Shown here: positions 13,821 through 16,618 of the stretch, in pieces
Layout of the letters: every line of letters begins with the position of its first letter
Numbering within the stretch: position 1 is the stretch's first letter
NCBI RefSeq assembly: GCF_000504305.1
Contig: NZ_KI632512.1
Span: 1,424,250 to 1,488,249 of the forward strand
DNA length: 64,000 bases
Origin: Nitratidesulfovibrio termitidis HI1
GTDB taxonomy: Bacteria > Desulfobacterota > Desulfovibrionia > Desulfovibrionales > Desulfovibrionaceae
Direction of reading: 5' to 3'
Notes under the pieces: generated by a model
Told to the model about the DNA's origin: nothing
The model's database searches: none
What the model saw: only the letters and a program-made list of their open reading frames with translations
Made by a program: the position numbers and the translations under genes

Positions 13821-14627
13821 CTAGCGGGAAACGCCCCACAACTCCAGCCTTGGCCCGGCGTCGATCAGCACCCCCAGCGGCACGTCCACCATTTGCGGCC
13901 CGGCCGACCATGGCGCCACCTGGTACGGCGGAAAATGCACCCGCACCCCTTCCGGCGTCAGCGCGAGGCTGGCGTAGTTGTCCACGTCCGGGCTGGTGCC
14001 GCTGCGCAGCATGTCCTCGGCCCGGTCGTCGCCCAGGGATTCCGCCAGCGCGTCGTAACAGTACGAGGCCAGCAGGGCCAGCGCGCCCTCGGCGTCCGCA
14101 AAGATGTCCTCCGGTGTCAGCCGCGCGCCCGAGTCCATGTCGTAGCTCAGGGTGATGACGTCCAGATTGCCGTGCGCGCCGCCGGTGTAGGTCCAGATGC
14201 TGAAGGTGACCGTGGCCGCCCGGGCCGAGGCGCGGGTTACCTCGTAGGTCACCTTCAGTTCATTGACGAAATGGTGGGCGTTGGCGTCCGCCATGCCGTT
14301 CACCGGCTCGGCCCCGGTTTCGGGTTCGGCCAGCCCCTGCCGGAATGCGGCCACGACATGCGCGGCCCAGCGGGCCAGATCGTCGTCCACGGCGGCCTGC
14401 CCCATTCGCGGGTAGCGCACGTCGATGTCGAAATCGTCCTCGCGCAGGGTGATGGAAGACTCGTCGTCACGCCCCGCGCCGGGCTCGGCGGCTCGCACGG
14501 AATCCGGCAGCCACAGGGGCATGAGGCTCGCGCACAAGGCGGCAAGCCCCATCAGCAAGCCCGCCAACATCCGGCGACGTTGGACACGCAGGCCCGATTC
14601 CGCAAAAAACCGTTTACGGTCGTTCAT
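13821..14627 (-). CDS. Exported DUF3298/DUF4163-type protein
   Basis: A 268-residue protein with a basic N-terminus and signal sequence (about 20-46, ending VRAAEP). The mature part follows the DUF4163/DUF3298 plan: an N-terminal strand region (ITLREDDFDIDVRYP), VTFSIWTYTGGAHGN (the conserved TGGAH signature), LTPEDIFAD, and a C-terminal beta segment. Relatives include the extracytoplasmic part of RsiV, which binds lysozyme, and peptidoglycan-associated proteins, so an envelope role is likely. The gene stands alone between a terminator and the antiporter gene. Confidence 0.78.
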   Translation of the reverse strand: MNDRKRFFAESGLRVQRRRMLAGLLMGLAALCASLMPLWLPDSVRAAEPGAGRDDESSITLREDDFDIDVRYPRMGQAAVDDDLARWAAHVVAAFRQGLAEPETGAEPVNGMADANAHHFVNELKVTYEVTRASARAATVTFSIWTYTGGAHGNLDVITLSYDMDSGARLTPEDIFADAEGALALLASYCYDALAESLGDDRAEDMLRSGTSPDVDNYASLALTPEGVRVHFPPYQVAPWSAGPQMVDVPLGVLIDAGPRLELWGVSR

Positions 14628-14724: not shown

Positions 14725-15951
14725 CTACACGCGAAAGCCGTAGCGCAGGTCCAGCAGGGTGCGCGGGCGCAGCAGCAGCATGCCGCCTGCCAGCACCACG
14801 TACACCAGGCTGAACCAGATGTGCAGCCGGTCGGGAATGTGCGGCAAGCCCATGGCCTGTTCCACCGGCACCTGGATGAACGGCGAGATGAACTGCACCA
14901 GGAACAGGCCGAACAGCACCAGCGCCCCGCGCATGCCGATGCGCATGCGCAGCAGCAGGCAGATGGCGAAGAGCGACTGTGCCGCCGTCAGCAGTATTTC
15001 GTGCATCTGGTGAGAATCCATGGGAATGGGCGGGTGCATGGAGCCGGACGAGGCCGCGTACACGCCGGGAATCATGCCCACCAGCAGGGTCCACTGGTTC
15101 AGCTTGGACGAAATCAGGCTGCCCAGCGCGATGCTGGCATGCCCGCGCATGGCGAACATCAGCGACACGATGAACTCGGGCGCCTCGGAGGCGATGGGCG
15201 CAAGCCACTGCACCAGCAGGAATTCGTTGATGCCCAGCACCTTGCCGGAGGCCACCAGGCTTTCGCTGAACAGTTCCGCATCGGCCAGGATGACCACGGC
15301 GGCAAACAGGAACAGCGACAGGGTGGCCATGCGGCGCTTGCCGGTGGGCAGTCCGGCCAGCACCTCCGCCGGGCCTTCGGCCTCGAACTCGGTGCAGGGC
15401 CTGCGCGAAACCAGCCAGATGTACCATACATACAGGGACACCAGCGCCACGCCGTCGTACCACGCCAGCGAACCCTTGATGGGAATGACGAAGGCATACG
15501 CCGTGGCCATGGCCAGGAACACCAGGTCGGTGCGGCGTTCGCTTTCCACCACCACCGCACTGCGGAAGCGCATCCAGCACACCAGCACGATGGCGCTCCA
15601 GCCCACGCCGATGAGCAGGCGGTTGGCCCCGGTCATGTTGGCGATGGCGTAGTGGGCATAGTCGCTTTCGGGGTGCTGCCCGGCCATCCAGGTAAAGTAC
15701 ATGTCCACGGCGTACTCGGGCAGCACGGCGATAAGCGCCACCACCGCCAGGGCCAGCGTCTGGGGAATGTCCAGCTGCGCCACCTCGCAGGCCCACATCA
15801 GCATGAACGACGCGGCCAGAATGGCCCCACCGGTCAGCCCGGCCATGACCAGGGGACTGATTTCGGGGTGCAGGGCGCGCATGGCAAGGCCCGGCAGCGT
15901 GGCCAGCACGGCCAGCAGGAAAGGGTACCAGTCGCGAAACGCGTGTCTCAC
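14725..15951 (-). CDS. CaCA-type cation antiporter under Mn2+ riboswitch control
   Basis: A 408-residue polytopic membrane protein with about 11 hydrophobic segments and two inverted halves. The first carries LALAVVALIAVLPEYAVDMY, the second WLAPIASEAPEFIVSLMFAM; these are the alpha-repeat signatures with acidic residues (LPEY, APEF) of the Na+/Ca2+ exchanger (CaCA) superfamily. The frame continues 50 codons upstream, but that stretch is the riboswitch itself. The GTG at 15951, with GAGAGG just before it, is the credible start. Control by a yybP-ykoY leader suggests manganese (or another divalent cation) export rather than calcium only. This assignment rests on the riboswitch, not on a selectivity motif. 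Confidence 0.85.
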   Translation of the reverse strand: MRHAFRDWYPFLLAVLATLPGLAMRALHPEISPLVMAGLTGGAILAASFMLMWACEVAQLDIPQTLALAVVALIAVLPEYAVDMYFTWMAGQHPESDYAHYAIANMTGANRLLIGVGWSAIVLVCWMRFRSAVVVESERRTDLVFLAMATAYAFVIPIKGSLAWYDGVALVSLYVWYIWLVSRRPCTEFEAEGPAEVLAGLPTGKRRMATLSLFLFAAVVILADAELFSESLVASGKVLGINEFLLVQWLAPIASEAPEFIVSLMFAMRGHASIALGSLISSKLNQWTLLVGMIPGVYAASSGSMHPPIPMDSHQMHEILLTAAQSLFAICLLLRMRIGMRGALVLFGLFLVQFISPFIQVPVEQAMGLPHIPDRLHIWFSLVYVVLAGGMLLLRPRTLLDLRYGFRV

Positions 15952-15999
15952 AGCCAACCTCTCGATACTGTTTGAGAATTCAACATATCGCCAGAGGCC

Positions 16000-16141
16000 A
16001 AAAAGAAAAGGCGAGACCTCCGGCATTCCTGCCGTGAAGGTCTCGCCAATTGGTCCGGTTTGCGGGTCCGTCCCAACGGCAACGCCAGGCGCGTGCGCCA
16101 TGCTGTTGACGTTGCCCTTGCTGGCTACTCCCCTTGCTGAG
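16000..16141 (-). ncRNA. yybP-ykoY (Mn2+) riboswitch with attenuator
   Basis: On the minus strand the leader begins CAGCAAGGGGAGUAGCCAGC, the hallmark 5' side of yybP-ykoY. It continues with AACGUCAACAG, a G+C stem, then GGACCAAUUGGCGAGACC, a long stem closed by GGUCUCGCC, and a run of U. The last stem (16010-16047) plus U-tract (16000-16009) is also an intrinsic terminator. The family binds Mn2+ and turns on Mn exporters. It starts at the predicted transcription start and ends about 50 nt before the antiporter GTG. Recognised by pattern; a covariance-model search would confirm it. Confidence 0.9.
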
Positions 16142-16145
16142 TGAG

Positions 16146-16174
16146 TAGATAGTCCGCCCCTGCGGGCGCGTCAA
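16146..16174 (-). promoter_or_regulatory. Sigma70-type promoter for the Mn2+ riboswitch/antiporter
   Basis: On the minus strand TTGACG, a 17-bp spacer, then TATCTA. The expected start point is 6-8 bases further, which coincides with the first base of the riboswitch. Confidence 0.75.
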
Positions 16175-16309
16175 GCCGGGGACGCCGTTCCTGTCGCCCC
16201 CTTTACAGTGCGGCGCGCCGGGCCTATCTCTGACGCCGACCCCGTTCAGACCGTCAGGCCACACCAGCAATCCGGCGTCCGGACCACCGGCGCGCCACGG
16301 AGTATCGCC

Positions 16310-16618
16310 ATGCATGTTCATGTTCCCAGCGGTGTTTGCAGCAAGCAGATCCAGTTCGACGTGCGCGACGGCGTGCTGCGCGACGTGCGCTTTGCCGGGG
16401 GTTGCCCCGGCAACCTCGAAGCGCTTGGCCGCCTGCTCGACGGCATGCCGGTGCAGGACGCCATCGACAAGCTGACGGGCATCACCTGCGGCAGCAAGCC
16501 GACCTCCTGTCCCGATCAACTGGCCAAGGCCTTGTCCGACCTGCAGGAAGGCCGCCCCCTTGCCGCACCGGCCCAGGCCGTGGGCTTCGGCCTGAAGTCG
16601 CTGAACCCCTTCGGCTAG
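16310..16618 (+). CDS. TSCPD domain protein (TIGR03905 type)
   Basis: A 102-residue protein with an ACGGAG site before the ATG. It contains SGVCSKQIQFDV, the GGCPGNLEALGRLLDGM core and LTGITCGSKPTSCPDQL, with four conserved Cys that probably bind a metal. TSCPD domains are found at the C-terminus of some ribonucleotide reductases and as small free-standing proteins in anaerobes. The free-standing form has no established biochemical role. Its length matches the family, so it is probably complete. Confidence 0.85.
   Translation: MHVHVPSGVCSKQIQFDVRDGVLRDVRFAGGCPGNLEALGRLLDGMPVQDAIDKLTGITCGSKPTSCPDQLAKALSDLQEGRPLAAPAQAVGFGLKSLNPFG

Follow-up and report, generated by a model that had tools for sequence, protein, structure and literature searches.

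The minus strand of the window, i.e., the entire 64,000-nucleotide stretch of Nitratidesulfovibrio termitidis HI1 DNA analyzed here, contains between positions 16174 and 14725 a compact unit that is best explained as a Mn2+-sensing ON-switch leader preceding the gene of a CAX_Af-branch exchanger that most likely lowers cellular Mn2+ (we place the probability of this reading at approximately 0.83). Direct reading of the strand reveals a promoter that is followed by an aptamer, a terminator hairpin with its T tract, a GAGAGG motif, and an open reading frame (ORF) that starts with GTG. The individual features are given below; published work is cited by PMC identifier.

16146..16174, minus strand: promoter, with TTGACG (16174-16169), a 17-nt spacer, and TATCTA (16151-16146)
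16036..16136, minus strand: aptamer of the yybP-ykoY type, predicted Mn2+ riboswitch (RF00080, 29.8 bits; model R1, 66.8 bits; covariation)
16133-16123 and 16111-16104, minus strand: the two parts of the aptamer core, GGGGAGTAGCC and CGTCAACA (direct reading)
16126..16133, minus strand: L1 side of the metal site, GGGGAGTA (eight columns invariant in 53/53 aligned aptamers)
16100..16106, minus strand: L3, ACAGCAT, including A16104 (A in 53/53)
16135-16132/16040-16037 and 16125-16123/16047-16045, minus strand: helices P1.1 and P1.2, respectively (alignment and covariation)
16116-16107/16087-16078, 16099-16095/16092-16088, and 16076-16073/16053-16050, minus strand: helices P3.1, P3.2, and P4, respectively
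16000..16047, minus strand: intrinsic terminator, GGCGAGACCU ... AGGUCUCGCC + UUUUCUUUUU (direct reading; hairpin of -21.1 kcal/mol)
16047-16038/16019-16010 and 16009-16000, minus strand: terminator arms and T tract TTTTCTTTTT (direct reading)
15958..15963, minus strand: ribosome-binding site GAGAGG (direct reading)
14725..15951, minus strand: CaCA-family exchanger, CAX_Af branch, 408 residues (GTG start at 15951, stop codon ending at 14725; PF01699)

Promoter and gene start

The original prediction had combined a promoter, an aptamer, a U-tract attenuator, and a GTG codon into one regulatory unit on the minus strand, and this stands as the best reading. The promoter pair that it proposed, TTGACG-17-TATCTA, agrees with the consensus at 8 of 12 positions (3 of 6 in the -10 element), and our scoring script chose another register for the window (TTGACG with a 19-nt spacer). 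The proposed promoter is backed by conservation upstream of the genes of relatives: 51 of 61 distinct upstream stretches contain a promoter zone that matches at least 9 of the 12 consensus positions, as compared to 50 of 1,220 shuffles, and the -35 element of the best promoter starts with TTGAC in 54 of the 61 stretches. At the position matching the proposed pair, L014, a relative from the same genus, has TTGACG-17-TATCAT. A consensus scan of positions 15900-16300 detected neither promoter nor terminator, since the -10 element matches at only three of six positions and the hairpin stem is imperfect; the scan was judged too strict for this locus. Transcription is predicted to start at approximately 16138.

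The assignment of the gene start to the GTG at 15951, preceded by GAGAGG, was likewise borne out. A longer frame from the ATG at 16101 was dropped because its start codon falls within the aptamer, where it overlaps the end of L3. The GAGAGG motif is kept in seven of the eight distinct leaders of the genus, and L013 carries AAGAGG. As for the flanking genes, the divergent neighbor (16208-16618, plus strand) encodes a TSCPD-domain protein (TIGR03905, E = 4e-32), and the gene 3' of the exchanger (13821-14627, minus strand) encodes a protein with DUF3298 and PdaC domains.

Sequence and structure of the aptamer

A search with the yybP-ykoY covariance model RF00080, which had been named as the check on the aptamer, gave a significant match with a score below the gathering threshold. 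The locus obtained 29.8 bits over the full model, at a gathering score of 45. The E value was 2.4e-6 when 601 bases were scanned with all Rfam families and 4.0e-6 across the genome (a single contig of 4.26 Mb), where the locus was the sole match. A scan of the whole window at the Rfam gathering score returned no entry for the locus, and the match in the window's genome was missed in two multi-genome RF00080 runs in which fewer candidates were scored or stricter filters were used. Related loci behave similarly. None of 20 that have the core reached the gathering score; at E values of up to 1, RF00080 identified the right place in 11 of 13 loci scanned (18.4 to 38.7 bits, E up to 0.56, all below 45 bits) and gave no match in L016 and L029. 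A score of 43.8 bits was obtained for L002, which lies upstream of a gene of the exchanger family in a different genus. The gathering threshold, reached by 0 of 20 loci, was thus rejected as an uninformative membership test for this aptamer subgroup, and because the direct Rfam score is subthreshold, membership in the yybP-ykoY class rests on comparative evidence.

To this evidence belongs R1, a covariance model trained on 49 loci from which the window's genus was left out. In the window's genome R1 matched a single place, 16136-16036, with 66.8 bits and an E value of 7e-16 (150 of 2,440 first-look candidates were scored, and the E values are rough). Built without the genus, R1 is a stronger independent test than RF00080, and it confirms that the aptamer is more than a chance resemblance.

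Homologues of the exchanger were collected from whole genomes, where 30 of the 57 genes detected were used, and from named contigs, which contributed 62 loci; the two sets share some genomes. Leaders were picked by searching no more than 420 nt of upstream sequence for the motif GGGGAGTA[GA]C, one substitution being allowed. This core motif was present in 72 of the 92 entries and absent in 20, in four of which the upstream region is shorter than 300 nt. The 72 entries correspond to 58 distinct leaders, 53 of which were aligned; L070 (leader cut too early) and L038, L058, L059, and L061 (long P4 insertions) were left out. In the latter four, approximately 75 to 150 bases are inserted, either within P4 or between its arms and the conserved GAGACCTT segment; their core and terminator look intact.

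In the 53 aligned leaders, 93.5% of 1,669 cells conform to the aptamer pairing, two-sided changes occur in 22 of 33 pairs, and helices P1.1, P1.2, P3, and P4 are supported by covariation. The covariation score was 0.416, as compared to 0.206 for shuffled alignments and at most 0.127 when partners were slid. The value for shuffled alignments should not be read as a probability, given that the structure was drawn with the alignment in view and that the sequences share ancestry; relatedness is preserved in the slid-partner control. Four of the five P1.1 pairs are without two-sided change (two are invariable and two vary on one side), and P3.2 is weak (74.5% paired), probably due to a register shift between groups. 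The minimum-energy fold of the first 102 nt reproduces P1.2, P3, and P4, and shifts P1.1 by one base relative to the register supported by the alignment. The window's aptamer has no P2 and thus forms a three-way junction; there is no room for P2 in 16 of the 53 rows, that of the window included. Since a three-way-junction member of the class is known, namely, the mgtA riboswitch of Streptococcus pneumoniae (recounted in PMC9495176), P2 was not treated as defining. The two leaders are alike in this junction and differ in the gene controlled, mgtA encoding a P-type ATPase.

The L1 core GGGGAGUAGC is found at 16133-16124, and the invariance of its eight columns across the 53 aptamers is partly by construction, given that the motif was used for picking with at most one substitution. 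By our alignment, A16104 appears to match the discriminator adenosine, i.e., A48 in Xanthomonas oryzae and A41 in Lactococcus lactis, the role of which is described in PMC6754395. Judged by its sequence, the leader RNA very probably senses Mn2+, and it would be expected to bind this ion selectively and to control the gene in a Mn-dependent manner.

Terminator overlap and the exchanger protein

In the window, the 5' arm of the terminator comprises the 3' strand of P1.2, the 3' side of L1, and all but one of the four 3'-strand bases of P1.1. This overlap is conserved: in all 53 leaders, three bases (3 rows) or four bases (50 rows) of the conserved CCTT that forms the 3' strand of P1.1 pair inside the terminator hairpin. 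The hairpins have energies from -15.1 to -28.8 kcal/mol, the value for the window being -21.1 kcal/mol, and the proposed attenuator with a U tract is borne out by these data. With the full hairpin transcribed, the unconstrained fold (-64.7 kcal/mol) includes the terminator and has P1 open, as compared to -51.6 kcal/mol when the aptamer is forced, both energies ignoring tertiary contacts and Mn2+. P1.1 and the terminator are thus mutually exclusive pairings, from which we infer that the leader acts as an ON switch in the cell.

In the proposed mechanism, a sigma-70-type promoter would give rise to a leader RNA from approximately 16138, which would fold during its synthesis as a Mn2+-sensing yybP-ykoY aptamer. 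At high cellular Mn2+, the ion would bridge L1 and L3 and P1.1 would close (AAGG with CCUU); the aptamer would retain GGCGAGACCUU, no terminator would form, and RNA polymerase would proceed into the exchanger gene. At low Mn2+, GGCGAGACCUU would pair with AGGUCUCGCC, and transcription would stop in the U tract at 16009-16000. The exchanger, a member of the CAX_Af branch, would most likely lower cellular Mn2+, probably in exchange for H+. Similar switches have been described in L. lactis, where Mn2+ stabilizes P1.1 so that the terminator is prevented (PMC11087558), and in X. oryzae, where the competition between P1.1 and terminator is supported and the discriminator adenosine contacts Mn2+ (PMC6754395). 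The leader studied here shares with both the L1/L3 core, the discriminator adenosine, and a P1.1 switch helix that competes with the terminator, and differs from them in the missing P2 (a three-way junction, in contrast to the four-way junctions of the crystallized aptamers) and in the gene controlled.

The encoded protein, P0001, contains two PF01699 matches above the cut-off (E = 6e-29); it is the sole PF01699 protein detected in the window's genome, and it matches L040 and L041 of Nitratidesulfovibrio at 97%. As originally claimed, it is neither a MntP nor a TerC protein: the MntP, TerC, and GDT1 domains (PF02659, PF03741, and PF01169) are absent, and PF01699 is the only domain found at E values of up to 0.001. 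The description as a Na+/Ca2+ exchanger-like carrier had to be narrowed, in that the CaCA family is correct but the branch is that of CAX_Af, NCX_Mj being a distant relative only (E about 1e-5). Among solved structures, 4KPP is the nearest (E = 1e-91), with 158 of 344 aligned residues identical (46%). We take 4KPP, the database record of which reads "putative uncharacterized protein," to be CAX_Af, an archaeal protein from Archaeoglobus fulgidus assigned H+/Ca2+ exchange. Residues E79 and E256 of P0001 align with E78 and E255 of 4KPP, which presumably are the ion-site glutamate pair of CAX_Af. A pair of site glutamates has been described in the family (PMC10227063). P0001 thus has the features of the CAX_Af branch of the CaCA superfamily, i.e., a pair of Na_Ca_ex repeats and both repeat glutamates; its scores against the curated models of the YrbG type are far below the cut-off (36.8 of 432 bits for NF008005 and 29 of 179.65 for TIGR00367). 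In the archaeal relatives L097 and L100, no aptamer core was found in the 420 nt upstream.

The closest precedent is BP3410 of Bordetella pertussis, a CaCA gene under a yybP-ykoY riboswitch with a single promoter upstream, which was induced by Mn2+ and not by Ca2+ (data not shown there) and whose functional copies reduced cellular Mn (PMC8546581); a review table files it as YRBG (PMC9936198). Both systems combine a yybP-ykoY riboswitch, one upstream promoter, and a carrier of the CaCA superfamily. They differ in the branch, CAX_Af here and YrbG there (judged by the scores of P0001 against the YrbG-type models), in the phylum, and in that the aptamer studied here is below the Rfam cut-off.

Distribution in the order and alternative explanations

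Our sample of the order contained 199 genomes, 57 of which have the exchanger gene as one open frame (G047, with broken pieces only, was left out). An R1 match within 400 nt upstream and on the same strand was found for 45 of these 57 orthologous genes, and none, under strict filters, for the remaining 12. In total, R1 gave 88 matches in 69 of the 199 genomes, at filters that lose weak matches. Considering the 12 genes without a match, and that the Desulfovibrionaceae account for 10 of the 13 loci in the protein-tree set that lack the core, the exchanger gene can do without the switch. On the protein tree (60 rows, with some long branches and some weak deep forks), there were 9 changes of the riboswitch label, as compared to 15.1 for shuffled labels. 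Such a pattern fits an old association between aptamer and exchanger that may have been followed by losses, many of them in one uncultured Desulfovibrio cluster.

Away from the exchanger, R1 gave 43 matches, of which 40 were fetched; the genes that follow were compared with seven reference proteins, a procedure that would skip any gene unlike these. The first gene recognized encoded a Tim44-domain protein at 22 sites, TerC at 11, and a YrbG-type CaCA protein at 4, and none was recognized at 3. Of the three sites beyond those 40, L003 and L008 precede TerC, and the third is G125:C416. RF00080 matches above the cut-off were found in front of GDT1/UPF0016 genes in L005 and L006, which belong to the genus, and in L007. 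Both TerC and GDT1/UPF0016 have been linked to Mn2+ (PMC13274385), and the occurrence of this RNA class before TerC and GDT1/UPF0016 genes in relatives supports the Mn2+ reading.

The Tim44-domain proteins (L139-L141, L143-L145, L148, L151, L153, L156, L158, L160, L161, L163, L165, L167, L169, L171-L174, and L176) are the most frequent non-exchanger target in the Desulfovibrionales, and the domain was confirmed with Pfam for three of the 22 sites. Their gene is followed by TerC at four sites, by a YrbG-type CaCA gene at one, and at three by a short frame that resembles HtpX by eye (no Pfam match). No paper that joins Tim44 with the yybP-ykoY riboswitch was among the titles listed in our literature search. 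In a different family of the order, the aptamer group described here also leads genes of a second, YrbG-type CaCA branch (L149, L152, L154, L166, and L174, the last with the YrbG-type gene following the Tim44-domain gene), and these riboswitch-led genes parallel BP3410.

The window's genome also encodes MntP (G000:C1:1840432-1840890), with no RF00080 match near its gene. In G062, from the same genus, there is no MntP match but a riboswitch-led GDT1/UPF0016 gene. Among the 199 genomes, 31 have both exchanger and MntP, 26 the exchanger only, 81 MntP only, and 61 neither, i.e., there is no association (odds ratio, 0.90; P = 0.75; in one of the 112 genomes counted for MntP, the match scores under the Pfam cut-off). 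The idea that the exchanger replaces MntP is thus not supported, and because both families occur independently, the exchanger is no simple stand-in for MntP.

The presence of a Mn2+-type RNA in front of the gene, here and in many relatives, suggests that the exchanger removes Mn2+ rather than Ca2+, and the proposed Mn2+ export stands up as the best reading of these sequences. Control by a Mn2+ riboswitch does not prove export, since Alx of Escherichia coli, a TerC protein under such a riboswitch, reportedly does not function as an exporter (PMC9936198). This case favors the strongest of the alternatives, in which the switch senses Mn2+ and the exchanger, transporting chiefly Ca2+ or else both ions, counters a Ca/Mn imbalance instead of serving as a Mn2+ exporter. 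It would agree with MgtA of S. pneumoniae, which is controlled by a riboswitch of this class and reportedly exports Ca2+ as well as Mn2+ when Mn2+ toxicity is extreme (PMC9936198), and with some CAX isoforms that carry Mn2+ besides Ca2+ (PMC4982074). We consider it improbable because BP3410 lowered cellular Mn (PMC8546581) and because the same RNA is linked to GDT1/UPF0016 and TerC genes in relatives.

There is still less to recommend a second alternative, in which the aptamer subgroup now responds to a divalent ion other than Mn2+, Ca2+ being the simplest candidate, and the gene encodes an ordinary Ca2+/H+ exchanger induced by its substrate. Variants of yybP with an altered ligand were expected by Sherlock and Breaker (PMC7266159), and the S. 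pneumoniae mgtA riboswitch has been described as Mn/Ca sensing (PMC11434433). The L1 core and the discriminator adenosine are, however, invariant in the 53 leaders, and the same aptamer group is found by one model before TerC genes. The closest solved relative, taken to be the H+/Ca2+ exchanger CAX_Af, would also agree with such a shift. The GUAAC and CAUCAACA variants of Desulfovibrio might be read as signs of an altered ligand, a reading weakened by the finding that both positions (columns 12/110 and 39/71) are mostly compensated pairs of P1.2 and P3.1 and not changes of the metal site. A chance resemblance of an ordinary attenuator or of a neighboring gene's terminator, suggested by the Rfam score below the gathering threshold and by consensus scans without promoter or terminator, is in our view already refuted by the comparative evidence, namely, the E value of RF00080, its sole match in the genome and its hits in 11 of 13 loci, the covariation, the R1 match, and the 45 of 57 orthologues.

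With a Mn2+-responsive leader and a Mn2+-lowering exchanger as the preferred reading, the riboswitch-controlled CaCA Mn2+ exporter is as a kind already published, for Bordetella and the YrbG branch (PMC8546581). What is new is the CAX_Af branch of CaCA under such an RNA, together with an aptamer group below the Rfam cut-off (20 of 20 loci missed). An earlier survey of 10 Desulfovibrionales genomes included yybP-ykoY among its motifs, and its main text contains neither "antiporter" nor "exchanger" (Sun 2013; PMC3766115); TaRTLEt made use of Desulfovibrio vulgaris transcriptome sequencing (RNA-seq) data, with no locus named in the portion available (PMC12121620). The titles and abstract beginnings searched contained no report of a Desulfovibrio or Mucispirillum case, which may be listed in subscription papers.

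Taken together, the data provide a testable substrate, Mn2+, for a carrier branch whose solved structure is labeled with Ca2+. A broader proposal, which we advance tentatively and hold to be somewhat less probable than its opposite, is that the bacterial CAX_Af-type branch is made up of Mn2+ exporters under an ancient Mn2+ riboswitch missed by the Rfam cut-off, and that CAX_Af itself may be a Mn2+ exchanger. Sulfate reducers and Mucispirillum harbor predicted Mn2+ riboswitches that lie under the curated Rfam cut-off in all 20 loci scanned. R1 recovers those loci and connects genes for TerC, YrbG-type carriers, and Tim44-domain proteins with a single Mn2+ signal that they probably share within the order.
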